A stretch of DNA of 48,499 bases from Gammaproteobacteria bacterium bin55. GTDB lineage: Bacteria > Pseudomonadota > Gammaproteobacteria > Pseudomonadales > Azotimanducaceae. Below are positions 38,530 to 45,006 of the stretch, in pieces. The DNA is taken from the NCBI GenBank assembly GCA_002238665.1, contig MPMU01000007.1, positions 1 to 48,499 of the forward strand, given 5' to 3'. Each line of letters begins with the position of its first letter. Within the stretch, counting starts at the first letter, position 1. The translations under genes were made by a program, and so were the position numbers. The notes beneath the pieces are model-generated. The model saw only the letters and a program-made list of their open reading frames with translations, did no database searches and was not told where the DNA came from.

Positions 38530-39813
38530 TCAACCTAACTCAAGAAACCAAAGCGATAAGAACGGCACATAAGTAATTAACATCAAAACTCCCATCAATA
38601 CAACCATAAATGGTAAGCATGCTCGATACAACTCGACGATCGGTCGGTCAAATCGATAACTTGCTATGAAGAGATTCATACCTATTGGAGGTGTAAAGTA
38701 ACCAATCTGCAGATTAGCCATCATGATTACACCGAGATGCAAAGGATGGATGCCAAATGCAACCGCGACCGGAAGTATCAGAGGAACCATGATCACGACT
38801 ACCGAAAATATATCTAACAATGCCCCCAGTAGCAACAGAAATAGATTCAGCAGGATTAGAAATACAAGAGGATTATCAACCGTTGCATTGATGGTGTTAA
38901 AGATCTTCTGTGGAACCTGCGCGTCTACGAAGTAATTGGTCAGAGCAAGCGCACATCCAAGTATTAACAGAATACTCCCGACCATCATCATGGTCTCTCT
39001 AATCACGCGCGGCAATTCGGTTAGTTTGAGCTCCTTCAGGACAAATACTTCCACGACTAATACGTAGAGTGCGGTTAGCGCTGCAGCTTCGGAAATCGCC
39101 AGAACACCGGTGTAGATTGACAATAAGACTATGAAAGGCAATGGTATTTCCCACTTTGCGGCGAGTAAAGACCTACCAACATTCTTCCATGAAAACGCGA
39201 TTCGTTCTACATTTCCATGTTTCCATATCGTCCACGCAGATAAAGCAATGAGCATTAGGAGACAAGGCACCAAACCGGCAATGAATAGCTGAGGAATGGT
39301 GAACGGTTCACCAACCTGAACTTGCTGTGCAATGATCCCGTAGAGGATCAATGGAATAGATGGGACGATTAAGAGGCCCAAACTACCCGATGAGGTGACC
39401 AACCCCAAGCTGTACGATTGAGAGTAGCCAGCTTTCCTTAGCATCGGCAGAAGGAGTGCTCCCAGTGCCACGATGGTTACACCTGACGCACCTGTGAGGG
39501 CAGTGAAAATCGCGCAGGCTACAAAACCAACGATTGCGAGCCCAGCTGGCATCCATCCGAACAAGGATGTGGTCACATTCATTAGTCTCTGAGAAGTTTG
39601 GGTCTCAGAGAGAAGGTAACCAGCGAAGGTGAATAGCGGTAAGGAAACTAGCAAAGGTGTATCGGCTATTCGGTAAATCTCGATGACGATGACAGTCAGA
39701 TCGATCCCTGCTAAATAGAAACCGAGCGCCGTGGCCACCACAACAACAGCGAAGATAGGTGCACCGAGCGCAGCCAGCGCGATCACGACTCCAATACCTA
39801 ACCACGCGATCAC
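38530..39813 (-). CDS. dctM: TRAP transporter large permease subunit
   Basis: Main membrane subunit of a tripartite ATP-independent periplasmic transporter, 427 residues with about twelve hydrophobic helices. Family landmarks are PLFTFAGYLLSE, FTALTGASGVTIVALGALLLPMLRKAGY and the C-terminal PPIGMNLFIASYRFDRP. Transport is driven by an ion gradient, usually sodium. The start is GTG at 39813 within a GTGA overlap with dctQ. Confidence 0.94.
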   Translation of the reverse strand: MIAWLGIGVVIALAALGAPIFAVVVVATALGFYLAGIDLTVIVIEIYRIADTPLLVSLPLFTFAGYLLSETQTSQRLMNVTTSLFGWMPAGLAIVGFVACAIFTALTGASGVTIVALGALLLPMLRKAGYSQSYSLGLVTSSGSLGLLIVPSIPLILYGIIAQQVQVGEPFTIPQLFIAGLVPCLLMLIALSAWTIWKHGNVERIAFSWKNVGRSLLAAKWEIPLPFIVLLSIYTGVLAISEAAALTALYVLVVEVFVLKELKLTELPRVIRETMMMVGSILLILGCALALTNYFVDAQVPQKIFNTINATVDNPLVFLILLNLFLLLLGALLDIFSVVVIMVPLILPVAVAFGIHPLHLGVIMMANLQIGYFTPPIGMNLFIASYRFDRPIVELYRACLPFMVVLMGVLMLITYVPFLSLWFLELG

Positions 39814-40289
39814 GACGATTCTCGCTTCTGACTAAAAATCGAATGTAAACCGTAGCGCATAGCCATCATAAAAGCGCTAATGGGGATGATTAGTTCCAAT
39901 ATCCATGCCGGTATAGCACCTACGCCGACCGAACCATCCATGATCTCCCACTGAATGAACGTGATTGAGAAATAGCCTATCCCTGCACAGACTAGCGCGG
40001 TTGCTAGGCAGACCAGGCGATCTATCACAGTTTGCAACATAACTGGTAGAAACCGTTCCAGCACATCTATGCGGATGTGCTTTTTCTCTCGTGCTGCAGC
40101 CATGGAACCTACCATAGTCAGCCACAGTACGGCCATTCTTACAAGCTCGTCACCGGCCGCAAATCCAGCATCGAAAAAGTTTCGAGCGACGATTTGGAAA
40201 ACCGCAACGCCAAGCATCGCGCCAAAAATACTGACTAATAGACCTGTCTCTACATTCTGCAGAAAACGGTCAATGGCACCAAAGGTCAG
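39810..40289 (-). CDS. dctQ: TRAP transporter small permease subunit, apparent CTG start
   Basis: Small membrane subunit, 159 residues with four helices. The first ATG (40217) lies inside the first membrane helix and would leave only 135 residues. The upstream frame encodes the missing family N-terminus (FGAIDRFLQNVETGLLVSIF) and contains no ATG, GTG or TTG. It begins at a CTG that overlaps the dctP stop as CTGA, with GAGG about 10 nt upstream. That mirrors the GTGA overlap at the next gene junction, so I take CTG at 40289 as the start. The charged motif AAREKKHIRIDVL is typical of DctQ. Confidence 0.82.
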   Translation of the reverse strand: MTFGAIDRFLQNVETGLLVSIFGAMLGVAVFQIVARNFFDAGFAAGDELVRMAVLWLTMVGSMAAAREKKHIRIDVLERFLPVMLQTVIDRLVCLATALVCAGIGYFSITFIQWEIMDGSVGVGAIPAWILELIIPISAFMMAMRYGLHSIFSQKRESS

Positions 40290-41284
40290 TTTGCTCTAAC
40301 CTCGTCGAGAATGTTCGTCATCCCCTCGTAGACATCTTCTGGAACAATGCCGTTATCTACCCAACTCTGCCTACCGGCTGAAGCAACTAATTGCCAATCC
40401 TTTCGCTCGGCTGCATTTGGGGTCAATATCTCAATACCTCTACTGACAAGAACTTCCCAAGTTTCTTGGTGATCCTTAATGTTCTGCGCTTCAGATAGTG
40501 CAACTGCTGCTTTAAAAACGTCGCGAACAACTTCCTGATCTTCCTGGCTTAGTTGGTTGAATCTTCGTGAGTCGACGATGAACAAACTGTAGATATACAT
40601 GAAAGGTATGTCTACAAGGTAACTGACTTGAGTATGCCACTGCAAAGCTACAACACTAACAGGGGGCGCAGCTATCGTGTCGATCAGGCCGGTTTGCAAG
40701 CCTGTAAGGACATCGACAGGAGAGAGAGGCACCGCATTGATGCCAAACGAGTTCAGGATTCGAGCTGAAAGACGATCACCTTTTGGAACCCAAATTTTTA
40801 AGTTCCTCGCTTTCTTTAAAGACTGTGCTTCCTTGGTGCTCAGCGCGTATGCAAATCCCAAACCAGGAATCCCTAACGTCTCAAAACCTCTGTCTCGCAA
40901 GGCTGTAATCAACGTTTCGTCGTACTTAGAACGGACAGCCTTGATCTCCTCAAATGATTGAAATTTCATGGGAAGGTTGTAAAGACTTACTACCGGTACT
41001 TGATTGCTTAAAGGTCCAGTTTGGACGATTCCTCCATGTAGTTGCCTTGCTCTGATTTTTCTGAGCACTACATTGTCGTCACCCATAACACCACCGCCGT
41101 AGAACTTAAAGGAGACACGACCGTCAGTTTTTTCGCCAATTTCATCCGCCGCAGAGCGGAGGTTGTTCATCCACGAAGACCCGTTAGGGGATAAGGTCGC
41201 CAATTTGAACTCAGTTGCGTGCCCTACACAACTGAAGGACACAAGAGCTATGAATCCAAGGGTTTTAAAAATATTCGTCTGCAC
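40286..41284 (-). CDS. dctP: TRAP transporter substrate-binding protein
   Basis: Periplasmic solute-binding protein, 332 residues with a signal peptide (residues 1-23, ending near GHA). DctP-type features include the N-terminal FKLATLSPNGSSW, KFYGGGVMGDD and the region around LSPVDVLTGLQTGLIDTI, where an Arg is usual for carboxylate binding in family members. The start is GTG at 41284 inside the end of the lipoprotein gene. The sequence resembles the DctP branch that occurs with a TatT lipoprotein. The ligand is unknown. Confidence 0.92.
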   Translation of the reverse strand: MQTNIFKTLGFIALVSFSCVGHATEFKLATLSPNGSSWMNNLRSAADEIGEKTDGRVSFKFYGGGVMGDDNVVLRKIRARQLHGGIVQTGPLSNQVPVVSLYNLPMKFQSFEEIKAVRSKYDETLITALRDRGFETLGIPGLGFAYALSTKEAQSLKKARNLKIWVPKGDRLSARILNSFGINAVPLSPVDVLTGLQTGLIDTIAAPPVSVVALQWHTQVSYLVDIPFMYIYSLFIVDSRRFNQLSQEDQEVVRDVFKAAVALSEAQNIKDHQETWEVLVSRGIEILTPNAAERKDWQLVASAGRQSWVDNGIVPEDVYEGMTNILDEVRAN

Positions 41285-42146
41285 TGTTTTTTAGTTCTTC
41301 CGCCAGTTGCTGAGCCAGAATGTTCTGAAGGGTAAAGTCTCCGGCTTTTGGACTTGAATTCAAGATCTCTTCAACCAATCGATCATGAAGTTCGCGATCG
41401 TAGACCAATCGAGCATAGCTCTCAGCCAATAAAACTTTGGCGTACAGGTTTCGTCCCTCACTTAGTGTGATTGCGCGTTCAAAATGTTCCCTTCCTTTCT
41501 CAGGTTTCCCACCCATTGACGGTGGGAACAGAGTTTCGAAAACACCCATATACATGTGCGACGCTCCTTGCTCGTGCGTCTCATCCAGGTCCAGTACATG
41601 TTGCATTAGGACCTTGACGTGGCTCAATTCAGCAACTGCCTCCCAATCGTCACTGTGCGTCTGAATGTATGTCGCCCAGGAAGTGCCAAATACGTAGAGG
41701 GTTTCAATGTCCTTCAACTTGATCGATTGAACTCTGGACTCAAAATCCTTAAAGTCCTGTTTTTTTGCCGCACACAGATTCGCGATTTTCATACAAGTGG
41801 CTTGCTGTGCATAGTCAAATGCCTTAAGAGCAAAGTGTTTCTGTCTGCTTGCATCTTCAACGAAGGCAGTGGCATAGGATCCGTTCAATACGGCTGCACC
41901 AAGAAGCAAGTCAGCACTTGGTTGGTCCCCTTGAACAAACGAATCCACCAAAATCAAGTAGGAAGGAAGTCCCTCCTCCACCACCTTAATATCCTCCGAA
42001 GACAAGACTGCGGTAGTGAGGTCGTCCGCTAATCCAGATGTGACATTATTTATCAGCGCGCCACATCCTATACTGAGCAAAGCACCAGCGCTCAGCAACA
42101 GCATTCTGAGTACAACAATCAATTCAACGTCGTTCCTGTCCGGCAT
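41265..42146 (-). CDS. TatT-like TRAP-associated lipoprotein (TPR fold)
   Basis: Predicted lipoprotein, about 293 residues. A hydrophobic stretch ends in the lipobox SIGCGAL. The rest is helical, with TPR-like units such as GAAVLNGSYATAFVEDAS, MYMGVFETLFPPSMGGKP and EKGREHFERAITLSEGRNLYA, which match the T component (TatT, Treponema TP0956 type). In that system a trimer of TatT is thought to dock the binding protein and help it capture hydrophobic ligands. The start is uncertain: the open frame begins at TTG 42152, ATG 42146 is chosen, and TTG 42122 would give a more typical lipoprotein signal. It overlaps dctP by 20 bp. Confidence 0.8.
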   Translation of the reverse strand: MPDRNDVELIVVLRMLLLSAGALLSIGCGALINNVTSGLADDLTTAVLSSEDIKVVEEGLPSYLILVDSFVQGDQPSADLLLGAAVLNGSYATAFVEDASRQKHFALKAFDYAQQATCMKIANLCAAKKQDFKDFESRVQSIKLKDIETLYVFGTSWATYIQTHSDDWEAVAELSHVKVLMQHVLDLDETHEQGASHMYMGVFETLFPPSMGGKPEKGREHFERAITLSEGRNLYAKVLLAESYARLVYDRELHDRLVEEILNSSPKAGDFTLQNILAQQLAEELKNSADEYF

Positions 42147-42222
42147 TAACAATTGATGAAGACGAGAGGACCCACATCAAATGCAATGTTTGGTCCCTAT
42201 AGTCAACATTCCATGAAGGCAG

Positions 42223-42843
42223 TTAATCTTCTGGCATCTCTGAGTCACTGTCATCGGTTCCGATCGCCGAGATTATTTCCTCTACGTCGGGTCGATCTCG
42301 ATAGCTTGGAAGTGCTCGCTTGAAAACTACAGCACCTTCAGCATCCACCATCACCATCCCTGGATGTGGTATGCCATAGGCTGGTGAATCCGCCTTTACC
42401 GTTTCATTGAGTATTCCAAATGCCTGCACGGTCTGAGTTTCAACATCAGATAACAATGGAAACTCAATGGACTTTGAGTCCACAAAATTTGCGATTGCTT
42501 CTGGTTTATCGTAAGAGACTGCAACTAAATTCACACCTAAATCTTCAAAACTACTTCTGCTTTCATTCAGCTGCACGAGCTGATTCTTGCAGAATGGTCA
42601 CCAATCCGCTGAGCGGACAAAAAACAGTGCCAGGCCATTCTCACCTTTAAGATCATCGAACGTTGTGAATTCACCGTTGGTATCTTGCACGGACAATGCT
42701 GGAATCGTTGAGCCAACTTCCGGACCCCATTGATTCTGATACTCATCCTGCTCGTCTGCAAATAAAGTTGGTGCCATACAGATAACTCCAATCGTAAAGA
42801 TCCAACGGACAAACGCATATCTATGGAATTGCTTGATATTCAT
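42223..42843 (-). CDS. Secreted peroxiredoxin/thioredoxin-like redoxin, predicted selenoprotein (Sec82, UxxC)
   Basis: Read through a single TGA at 42598-42600, this is one 206-residue AhpC/TSA-type redoxin. The first half (81 residues) has a signal peptide (cleavage near LFA-DEQ) and the domain start VGSTIPALSVQDTNGEF, up to LALFFVRSADW. The second half continues in the same frame with PFCKNQLVQL, VAVSYDKPE, EFPLLSD and GIPHPGMVMVD. The TGA sits exactly where relatives have the catalytic Cys of SADWCPFCKxQL, giving Sec82-Pro-Phe-Cys85. A stem-loop of bacterial SECIS type follows (42555-42594). The ATG at 42843 has AGGAAG 7 nt upstream. It probably reduces peroxides or disulfides in the periplasm. 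The alternative, a simple nonsense mutation, is less likely. Confidence 0.85.
42555..42594 (-). promoter_or_regulatory. Predicted bacterial SECIS element
   Basis: Starting four bases after the TGA, the mRNA can form an outer stem TTCTGC/GCAGAA (42589-42594 with 42555-42560) and an inner stem TCAGCT/AGCTGA (42578-42583 with 42567-42572) closed by the five-base loop CGTGC. The loop G is 22 nt downstream of the TGA. Bacterial SECIS elements lie inside the coding region directly after the UGA, with a G-containing apical loop about 16-37 nt away, where SelB binds. Both stems are perfect. Confidence 0.78.
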
Positions 42844-43058: not shown

Positions 43059-43952
43059 GTGCCATATTTCCAATCTCCCCTCGGGCAAATGTACTTTGAA
43101 CAACATGGTTCTCGTGCTGCTACTCCCGTCTTGATGATCCATGGAATTGGCTGTCAAGTGGTGCATTGGCCAGAATCTTTTCTTAGTGGGCTTGTGGATT
43201 CGGGCTATCGCGTCATTGTATTTGATAACAGAGATGCTGGATTGTCATTCTCAATCGATGCGGAACCACCTGAAATAGCGCAACTAATCGTTGCACAGAA
43301 CGACCCAACAGCGGCAACAGCTGCCTATTCACTTTCCGACATGGCGCAAGATGCGATCCATCTTTTAAATCACATCGGCCAATCCGGTGCTCACATCGTT
43401 GGTACATCCATGGGTGGTATGATCGCTCAGCGATTCGCTCTCAATCATCAGCATCGCATATTCAGCCTTACCACACTGATGAGTAGTACCGGAAACCCAG
43501 ATTTACCACCCGCCGCGCCTGAAGCTGTTGCCGCGCTGGCGCAAGCCTTTTTCTTGTCGGATCGTCAAGCTGTCATCGACGCAACCATTGCTACGGGTAC
43601 CACTCTTTCCGGTGAACACTTTGACTCCAGAGAAGTTGGAATAGCCAGATTCGCGGAGATTGCTTACGACCGGGCAGTCAATCCTCAAGGAACGCTCAGG
43701 CAATTCGCAGCTATCCTCACGGACGGCAATCGAGCTCCATTGCTCAAGGAACTCAAGATTCCAGTCTTAGCAATTCACGGTGACAATGATCGACTGCTGG
43801 ATGTCAAAGGAAGCGAGGACATCGTAAATTCTGTACAGAACGGCAAACTAATGGTGATCGAAAAACTTGGCCATGATCTGTCGGAACCGGTCATACCTGC
43901 CATGGTCGAAGCGATCGTGGAGCACATCTCCACCACTAATCCGCCAAGATAG
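43059..43952 (+). CDS. Alpha/beta hydrolase
   Basis: 297-residue alpha/beta-hydrolase of unknown substrate. Motifs in order are the oxyanion region MIHGIGCQ, VFDNRDAGLS, the nucleophile elbow GTSMGGMIAQ (Ser near residue 119), the acid in AIHGDNDRLLD, and the catalytic His in LGHDLSEP. Overall it resembles the 3-oxoadipate enol-lactonase/esterase group. The start is GTG at 43059 without a clear ribosome-binding site. A weak hairpin (ACCTCT/AGAGGT at 43008-43025) lies in the leader. It converges on the LLM oxidoreductase gene, with 10 bp between the stops. Confidence 0.88.
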   Translation: MPYFQSPLGQMYFEQHGSRAATPVLMIHGIGCQVVHWPESFLSGLVDSGYRVIVFDNRDAGLSFSIDAEPPEIAQLIVAQNDPTAATAAYSLSDMAQDAIHLLNHIGQSGAHIVGTSMGGMIAQRFALNHQHRIFSLTTLMSSTGNPDLPPAAPEAVAALAQAFFLSDRQAVIDATIATGTTLSGEHFDSREVGIARFAEIAYDRAVNPQGTLRQFAAILTDGNRAPLLKELKIPVLAIHGDNDRLLDVKGSEDIVNSVQNGKLMVIEKLGHDLSEPVIPAMVEAIVEHISTTNPPR

Positions 43953-43962
43953 GTCCCTCCAG

Positions 43963-45006
43963 CTAAAGGCTTTTGATAAGGTCCAGAGTCCTTCCCAAAG
44001 TATCCAAGCGTTCCTCCAGCGTGCGGCCATACGGGCCTAAACGGAAAGTCGTAACACCCGCATCACGATAGACTTTCAATCGCTCCCGCACAGTCGCCTC
44101 GTCACCAATCAGGTTGGTTTGGCGAATCAGTAACTCAGGTACTTTCTGCGCAGCTTCCGCTCGCTTACCAGCAATCCACAATGCTTGAACCTCGCGCGCA
44201 GTATCTTCATATCCACCGCGCCGATAGGCTTCGTTATAGAAATTGGTTTTCGCAGACCCCATCGCCCCTAGAGTAAATGCCATACCGGCTTTTAACGACT
44301 CAATAAGTGCGCTGTCGTCCTCAATGAATGCGACCGTACCTCCGGCTTGAATGTCAATTTCACCCAATTCTCGTCCTGCAGAAATAGCACCTCGTTTTAT
44401 GTAATCTAAATGAGCGTCTGCGTGGTCTGGTGTGAATGATGTACCTAGCCAACCGTCCGCCTTTTCCCCAGTAAATTCGAGTGCTTTAGGACCTAGAGTA
44501 GCGAGATAAATCGGGATCTGGTCGTTCGGCGGTTGGGACAACCGAAGTGCCTTACCTTCTCCTCCCGGTAAAGGCAATTCATGGAGTTTGCCAGAAAATG
44601 CAAGTTTTTCACCCTTGAATGCCATTCGGATAATCTCGACCGTCTCTCGCATCCGGGTCAGTGGTGCTTTGAAACTTCGACCTTGTAAGCCTTCCACTAC
44701 CTGCGGTCCGGAAGCTCCGAGACCCAGAATGAATCGATCATTCGAGAGTGCAGCCATGGTCAGTGCAGTCATCGCGGTCATGGATGGCGTCCTGGCACTG
44801 ATCTGCATGATCCCAGTACCAAGCTTGATTCGACTCGTTTTCGCCGCTATGTATGCCAGCGGCGCGATCGCGTCGTGTCCCCATGCCTCAGCACTCCAAA
44901 CTGTGTCGACTCCCAACCTTTCGGCTTCGACTACAAACTCAATGTCTCGATCAAATGTTCGGTCTCTGCCGGAGGCAGCCCCACCAATTCCTATGCTTAC
45001 TTCCAC
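43963..45006 (-). CDS. LLM-class (luciferase-like) F420-type oxidoreductase
   Basis: 347-residue TIM-barrel flavin or F420 oxidoreductase. The N-terminus DRDIEFVVEAERLGVDTVWSAEAWGHD, the KLGTGIMQISARTP motif and FILGLGASGPQVVEGL are typical of the F420-dependent tetrahydromethanopterin reductase-like branch. The same family also includes FMN-dependent members, so the cofactor is not certain. The start is GTG at 45006. It is divergent from the methyltransferase gene, with 178 bp between. Confidence 0.88.
   Translation of the reverse strand: MEVSIGIGGAASGRDRTFDRDIEFVVEAERLGVDTVWSAEAWGHDAIAPLAYIAAKTSRIKLGTGIMQISARTPSMTAMTALTMAALSNDRFILGLGASGPQVVEGLQGRSFKAPLTRMRETVEIIRMAFKGEKLAFSGKLHELPLPGGEGKALRLSQPPNDQIPIYLATLGPKALEFTGEKADGWLGTSFTPDHADAHLDYIKRGAISAGRELGEIDIQAGGTVAFIEDDSALIESLKAGMAFTLGAMGSAKTNFYNEAYRRGGYEDTAREVQALWIAGKRAEAAQKVPELLIRQTNLIGDEATVRERLKVYRDAGVTTFRLGPYGRTLEERLDTLGRTLDLIKSL

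Follow-up and report, generated by a model that had tools for sequence, protein, structure and literature searches.

A predicted selenocysteine redoxin of the UxxC type and its TatT-TRAP gene neighbourhood in Gammaproteobacteria bacterium bin55

The stretch of contig MPMU01000007.1 analysed here in full (48,499 nt, hereafter the window) contains a minus-strand redoxin gene that almost certainly encodes a selenoprotein, with selenocysteine (Sec) predicted at the UGA codon 42600-42598. A selenoprotein with a UxxC redox role is very likely the best account of this locus. The gene and its coding elements are the following:

42223..42843, minus strand: gene of a predicted Sec-containing, probably exported redoxin, 206 residues with U82 (frame, PF00578 match and relatives)
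42598..42600, minus strand: UGA codon for predicted selenocysteine 82, the first position of U-x-x-C (TGA in 63/63 aligned relatives, TGC/TGT in 7/7 close Cys homologues)
42757..42843, minus strand: probable signal peptide, residues 1-29 (MNIKQ...TLFA), recognised in the sequence by eye

The minus-strand frame from 42843 to 42223 has a sole interruption, the TGA at 42600-42598, which corresponds to residue 82 in the context FFVRSADW-U-PFCKNQLVQL. An earlier sequence-only reading of this DNA had described one frame broken solely by this TGA, and the 206-residue frame bears it out. It had also expected standard annotation to split the gene; indeed, ORF finding without read-through divides it into one piece at 42598-42843 (81 aa) and another at 42223-42576 (117 aa). 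The read-through protein matches PF00578 (AhpC-TSA) with 92.7 bits over residues 43-173 and PF08534 with 63.6 bits. When the pieces are taken alone, the C-terminal one matches PF00578 with 63.9 bits and the N-terminal one has no match to it. The PF00578 match was found in all 40 family members scanned. The signal peptide and the periplasmic location proposed in the same reading are plausible by eye for the window protein, whereas the leaders of several relatives, also judged by eye, are lipoprotein-like instead.

Relatives were searched with the read-through protein in a neighbour set of 97 whole genomes, including the window's own. There were 64 rows of at least 90 bits, and 62 of them contained exactly one stop, which was TGA. 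These 62 single-TGA rows and one row at 74 bits form an alignment of 63 sequences. TGA occupies one shared column in 63/63 of them; it is preceded by W and followed by C at +3 in 63/63 as well. The two rows of at least 90 bits without the TGA are a decayed copy in the G032 genome, with TGG at the Sec site and TAG and TAA stops at other places, and a G012 paralogue (L106 4146-4709), in which Asp replaces Sec in the sequence WDGVC. SelB was not found in G032. The decayed copy is TatT-linked (L096 7759-7995), and a second copy with TGA persists elsewhere in the same genome. Several further paralogues can be noted. Two diverged ones without the Sec site are located in an array in G010 (L078 9519-10007 and 8248-8505), and one diverged copy without the motif was found in G007. 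In six genomes of the same genus, the main gene is directly preceded by a second, tandem Sec redoxin with the motif W-U-G-S-C; the loci are L064, L067, L068, L069, L070, and L071 in genomes G013, G007, G004, G008, G011, and G002, respectively.

Named-species genomes were scanned using an alignment that starts right after the UGA codon and a pattern that requires Val at +8. At least 555 related stretches were found, and the best 80 of them were kept. Among these best 80, TGA was read by script in 79, and the eightieth (L216) also has W-U-P-F-C. Since a scan with the Sec-only alignment and the Val at +8 would miss the seven close Cys homologues described below, its 80 TGA loci form a biased sample. 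Their hosts are Gammaproteobacteria and Pseudomonadales MAGs, Candidatus Litorirhabdus, Acidobacteria including Bryobacterales, and one Hydrogenedentota record. Pooling of the neighbour and named sets, which overlap, at more than 60 bits and with exactly one in-frame TGA resulted in 120 distinct Sec sequences. This rule excluded the decayed copy of G032, the paralogue with Asp of G012, and a 76-bit paralogue of G010. A plasmid search returned 113 records, all below 60% identity, and the 15 matches listed were at 25-30%. Single-protein scans of genome contigs and viral contigs revealed no relatives; the peptide patterns probably demanded too much, and TGA genes escape any pattern that has Cys at the site.

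The machinery for Sec decoding is encoded in the window's assembly (2.93 Mb, 183 contigs, 87.8% complete). A search for selA, selB, selC, and selD had been suggested as a check of the selenoprotein assignment, and all four were found: tRNA-Sec at 69.1 bits, SelB at 409 bits, SelA at 537 bits, and SelD at 285 bits. All are above the curated cut-offs and lie together on contig C133, where selC, selB, and selA adjoin one another. The SelD of this genome is located inside a 729-residue frame (L018; L057 1371-2273) and is possibly an Ndh-SelD fusion; such a fusion is described from ocean samples in the cited part of the 2008 GOS survey (PMC2398784). Formate dehydrogenase was considered as another user of the sel genes. 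None of the Fdh-alpha matches in the assembly (L247, L248) contains an in-frame stop or exceeds the cut-off; in the absence of such a stop, these genes give no sign of a Sec formate dehydrogenase in the window's genome.

When 398 genomes from the whole phylum were searched with a profile, seven close homologues without stops were found, at 139-185 bits. All seven have Cys, encoded by TGC or TGT, at the Sec position. The suggested alignment of homologues at this site thus gives TGA in 63/63 aligned relatives and Cys in the seven close phylum-wide homologues, and the in-frame UGA with Sec/Cys pairs among homologues, by which selenoproteins are recognised, is present here. SelB was above the cut-off in none of the seven Cys genomes versus 17 of 18 named Sec genomes tested, the exception being G760; these 18 were chosen from the 80 named loci, and 14 of them are outside Gammaproteobacteria. 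A similar relation can be seen in the neighbour set: SelB was above the cut-off in 48/51 genomes with a TGA copy of at least 90 bits versus 10/46 genomes without such a copy; G019, which belongs to these ten, contains a TGA copy that scores 74 bits. The three TGA-bearing neighbour genomes without SelB are G032, G034, and G044 (91, 91, and 85% complete, respectively). On a quick tree, the seven Cys sequences are nested within the Sec sequences, and the support for one Cys group is only 5.

A SECIS-like hairpin is predicted downstream of the UGA codon:

42567..42583, minus strand: upper stem of six pairs and a 5-nt apical loop (CGUGC) with G at loop position 2
42555..42594, minus strand: whole predicted hairpin, including the lower stem UUCUGC/GCAGAA (MFE -13.8 kcal/mol)

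If the U of UGA is numbered 0, positions 17-22 pair with positions 28-33 and enclose a five-base loop. Among 61 distinct sequences, six pairs are formed in 50 and five in 11, and 97% of the cells are paired. Because QLVQL-type codons are partly self-complementary, the comparison was made with 500 synonymous-codon sets drawn according to local codon usage. The mean number of pairs in the 61 sequences is 5.82 of 6, versus 4.25 in the draws (highest 4.57), and the mean folding energy is -7.89, versus -3.69 in 60 of the draws. The outer pair varies (GC 27, CG 14, TA 11, AT 5), and if the 3' side is slid or the hairpin is moved, pairing falls from 97% to 6-47%. Taken alone, the window hairpin does not reach significance (z -1.64; 14 of 200 shuffles do equally well); the claim rests on the upper stem across relatives, and the lower stem is seen in the hairpin predicted for the window. 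A search of Rfam gave three matches, all far below the gathering scores. The upper stem and loop agree with the wording in the cited part of the Sargasso Sea survey (PMC1088965), a stem-loop just downstream of UGA with a small apical loop containing G.

The second loop base is G in all 61 distinct Sec sequences. In the seven close Cys genes, 2-5 of the 6 pairs are formed and the loop G is present in none; their residue at +8 is Ile, Leu, or Met, versus Val in 58 and Gly in 5 of the 63 Sec sequences. This constancy among Sec genes and the loss in the seven close Cys genes would fit an RNA constraint acting on the protein. The idea that the loop G is missing from Cys genes altogether was ruled out by four more distant Cys homologues (L235, L238, L242, L246), which have Gly or Ala at +8, the loop G, and 3-5 of the 6 pairs. 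Since the Val or Gly codon begins with the loop G, part of the constancy of this base may be a protein constraint, and with these distant homologues taken into account, the effect of coding is not wholly distinguished from that of the RNA.

Two other explanations of the TGA can be considered. The gene might be a Cys redoxin that has acquired a stop, or a TGC or TGT might have been misread as TGA; standard ORF finding does split the gene, and one copy, that of G032, is truly decayed. Both the pseudogene and the error are nevertheless very improbable. All 120 distinct sequences have the TGA at one conserved site, a recurrence that a sequencing error would not produce; moreover, there is no further stop in the window frame, TGA copies co-occur with SelB, and the hairpin points to selection beyond the codons. 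Random stops in close relatives, which the sequence-only reading had named together with a sequencing error as grounds for giving up the assignment, were not observed: the relatives share the same-site TGA, and the one decayed copy belongs to a genome without detected SelB. The TGA could also be read by a suppressor tRNA or under a wholesale TGA=Trp code, with another residue at position 82, and the frame would likewise stay open. We find this hardly credible, as such a code would leave the hairpin and the co-occurrence with SelB without a function, Cys and not Trp stands at the site in the seven close homologues that lack TGA, the sole TGG copy is decayed, and 19 of the 53 TatT-linked rows end the redoxin gene with a TGA stop. 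The assignment as a probable selenoprotein is thus strengthened by the TGA in 63/63 relatives, the sel genes, the Cys homologues, and the hairpin. The hairpin and the TRAP genes described below were absent from the earlier reading.

Selenoproteins of this kind are already known, as that reading had also stated: a Prx-like class has been predicted since the Sargasso Sea survey. In the cited parts of these sources, the 2005 survey reports 22 "Prx-like" selenoproteins, of which 21 carry UXXC and one UXC (PMC1088965), a 2006 paper reports eight such Prx-like proteins and also selenoproteins in Acidobacteria (PMC1794560), the 2008 GOS survey describes Prx-like 1 as pfam00578 with UxxC, 225 selenoproteins, and 2,740 Cys homologues (PMC2398784), and a 2026 review gives a Prx-like thiol:disulfide oxidoreductase with PF00578 and UxxC/UxxU as predicted with high confidence (PMC13188914). 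The window protein has PF00578 (92.7 bits), W-U-x-x-C is found in 63/63 relatives, and the bacterial SECIS-like hairpin is likewise common to it and the published class. By its domain and by the Sec motif rule in the cited part of PMC9312934, with published members compared by description only, it is a further predicted member of the Prx-like UxxC selenoproteins. The cited parts of the published descriptions mention neither a TatT/TRAP neighbourhood nor a signal peptide, whereas the window gene has the former and probably the latter. In the open-licence PubMed Central literature, no related paper on WUPFC-type motifs and no paper on an Acidobacterial selenocysteine redoxin selenoprotein was found.

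Other known families resemble the window protein less closely. No NCBIfam model reaches its cut-off for the window protein, and the 40 members scanned (40/40) match only the same general redox families and other Sec families. With ResA/TlpA, it shares the place of CxxC and a similar fold, but it has Sec for the first Cys; its match to the ResA family is 58 bits at a cut-off of 170, and the sequence match stops at residue 144-145. With the Bcp/PrxQ and AhpE peroxiredoxins, including the Sec peroxiredoxins with TxxU, it shares the fold and the position of C85. The Sec of TxxU peroxiredoxins is at the peroxidatic position, whereas the Sec of the window protein is at the Thr position: residue 79 of the window protein is Ala, and its Sec column corresponds to the Thr/Ser of Bcp. 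The residue three before Sec in the 63 relatives is A in 24, S in 17, T in 12, and V in 10. A Prx-like domain related to the SelL-related model NF040769 was matched in 40/40 members; the window protein gives 56.4 bits at a cut-off of 120. The motif of SelL is UxxU, whereas that of the window protein is UxxC.

The U82-P-F-C85 stretch aligns with the C-x-x-C of ResA, and the best single-sequence PDB matches are ResA. In comparison with the Bcp-type structures 2cx3 and 2ywn, U82 is located at Ser/Thr and C85 at the Cys of the TxxC/SxxC motif, which we take to be the peroxidatic Cys. The placement of the TGA at the first active-site Cys, proposed from the sequence, thus holds for a ResA-type CxxC; for peroxiredoxins it does not, their peroxidatic-Cys position being C85. 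An AlphaFold2 model constructed from 42 sequences (the window protein and relatives) has a mean pLDDT of 86. In Foldseek, the model is matched best by Bcp-type proteins (3hjp, TM 0.87 by target), followed by AhpE, and ResA is somewhat lower (0.74-0.81).

We consider an exported UxxC reductase the probable identity of the protein. The ribosome would insert Sec at the UGA 42600-42598 by means of SelB, tRNA-Sec, and the hairpin 17-33 nt downstream, and the product would be exported to the periplasm and adopt a thioredoxin/peroxiredoxin-like fold with the active site W-U82-P-F-C85. With U82 at the place of the first Cys of the ResA CxxC and C85 as its partner, the enzyme would most likely cycle through a U82-C85 selenenylsulfide, and this cycle may reduce disulfides or peroxides in the periplasm. 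Sec decoding, the UxxC motif, and the gene order draw on comparison of relatives; export, fold, and selenenylsulfide chemistry are predictions. A different possibility, to which we give the lesser weight, is that the protein is mainly a peroxidase, that is, a Sec-assisted peroxiredoxin in which U82 or C85 attacks the peroxide, rather than a disulfide reductase. Among Pfam families, PF00578 gives the best match and occurs in 40/40 members, C85 is aligned with the Cys of the Bcp TxxC/SxxC motif, and the top Foldseek matches are Bcp-type and then AhpE; on the other hand, U replaces the Thr/Ser of the Bcp motif, and ResA provides the best single-sequence PDB matches. Taking thiol and peroxide substrates together, the likely role is that of a periplasmic thiol or peroxide reductase, possibly serving the neighbouring transport system.

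This system is encoded directly behind the redoxin gene, which also has a divergent neighbour:

41265..42152, minus strand: TatT, TRAP transporter T-component (PF16811, 219.6 bits)
40286..41284, minus strand: DctP-type solute-binding protein (PF03480, Pfam match)
39810..40217, minus strand: DctQ small membrane subunit (PF04290, Pfam match)
38530..39813, minus strand: DctM large membrane subunit (PF06808, Pfam match)
43059..43952, plus strand: divergent alpha/beta hydrolase gene, also upstream in several relatives

The first in-frame start of tatT is 70 nt past the redoxin stop on the same strand. In the frames as listed, dctP overlaps tatT by 20 nt and dctM overlaps dctQ by 4 nt. TatT thus stands beside DctP, DctQ, and DctM, the gene set of a TPR-associated TRAP (TPAT) transporter. 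The TPAT of Treponema pallidum has a like gene set, TatT-TatP-TatQM; its operon consists of three genes, tatT, tatP, and tatQM, according to the cited part of PMC5812351, whereas in the window DctQ and DctM are encoded separately and a Sec redoxin gene precedes the set. In the same source, TatT is portrayed as a TPR-like protein that contains a hydrophobic pore, and TPAT systems are said to be likely to import hydrophobic molecules. Two promoter-like sites were counted versus a shuffled mean of 1.7, and two terminator-like sites versus 0.8, the minus-strand one lying inside tatT; these counts favour no particular operon structure. The redoxin is probably co-transcribed with TatT-DctP-DctQ-DctM in the window's bacterium and in many relatives. 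The window also contains a luciferase-like monooxygenase gene (43963-45006) next to the divergent alpha/beta hydrolase gene, and an alpha/beta hydrolase was found upstream of several other redoxins, both TatT-linked and not. In 19 of the 53 TatT-bearing rows, the true stop of the Sec gene is TGA, so that one mRNA uses UGA for both Sec and termination.

TatT was found within 1.5 kb downstream on the same strand in 45 of the 120 distinct Sec sequences, usually followed by DctP-DctQ-DctM, and at a match distance within 300 nt in 35 of the 53 TatT-bearing rows. The other 75 Sec sequences have no TatT within 1.5 kb, although some contigs end sooner. On the tree, TatT linkage requires 11 changes versus 37.6 when shuffled, a contrast inflated by near-copies and shared ancestry. 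Conversely, the window's family contains 53 TatT matches with a full score. A Sec redoxin precedes 25 of them by no more than 1.5 kb, one has the decayed copy there, two have a Sec redoxin 3-4 kb away, and the other 25 are without. A class-wide search matched TatT in 67 of 274 genomes, and the 30 best loci were inspected with 1.5 kb flanks; outside the window's family, a Sec redoxin was found beside TatT in 0/30 of these loci. A general link between Cys redoxins and TatT was rejected, as a Cys redoxin lies near only one of the 30 TatT loci and on the opposite strand (L124). No TatT was found beside the Acidobacterial redoxin copies.

The genomic association of a Sec redoxin with TPAT genes appears to be new here: in the open-licence PubMed Central literature, no report linking a selenoprotein or selenocysteine redoxin to a TRAP transporter was found. 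What it means is a matter of conjecture. It is somewhat more probable than not that the redoxin is functionally unrelated to the TRAP genes and that the adjacency is the inherited gene order of one lineage; the 75 unlinked Sec sequences and the 30 TatT loci outside the family without a Sec redoxin agree with this, whereas the recurrence of the linkage over many genera (11 versus 37.6 shuffled changes, with the contrast inflated by shared ancestry) and the distance within 300 nt in 35/53 TatT-bearing rows speak against it. A working link between the redoxin and the TPAT system is put forward tentatively. If there is one, the redoxin may keep the periplasmic parts of the transporter, or its cargo, reduced. 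The specific proposal that the Sec redoxin of the Pseudomonadales lineage is a working TPAT accessory, reducing the periplasmic proteins of the transporter or detoxifying oxidised and probably hydrophobic cargo, is a doubtful one.

The clade of these redoxins is large, with at least 555 related stretches, the best 80 of which are of the TGA type. With no NCBIfam model at its cut-off for the window protein and only general family matches in the members scanned, genes of this clade are expected to be split or called pseudogenes. The close Cys homologues in genomes lacking SelB provide a natural contrast, in which the hairpin and the loop G weaken without Sec; given this weakening, the RNA signal may shape the protein. 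Finally, the gene order gives a testable lead to the function of a Prx-like selenoprotein.
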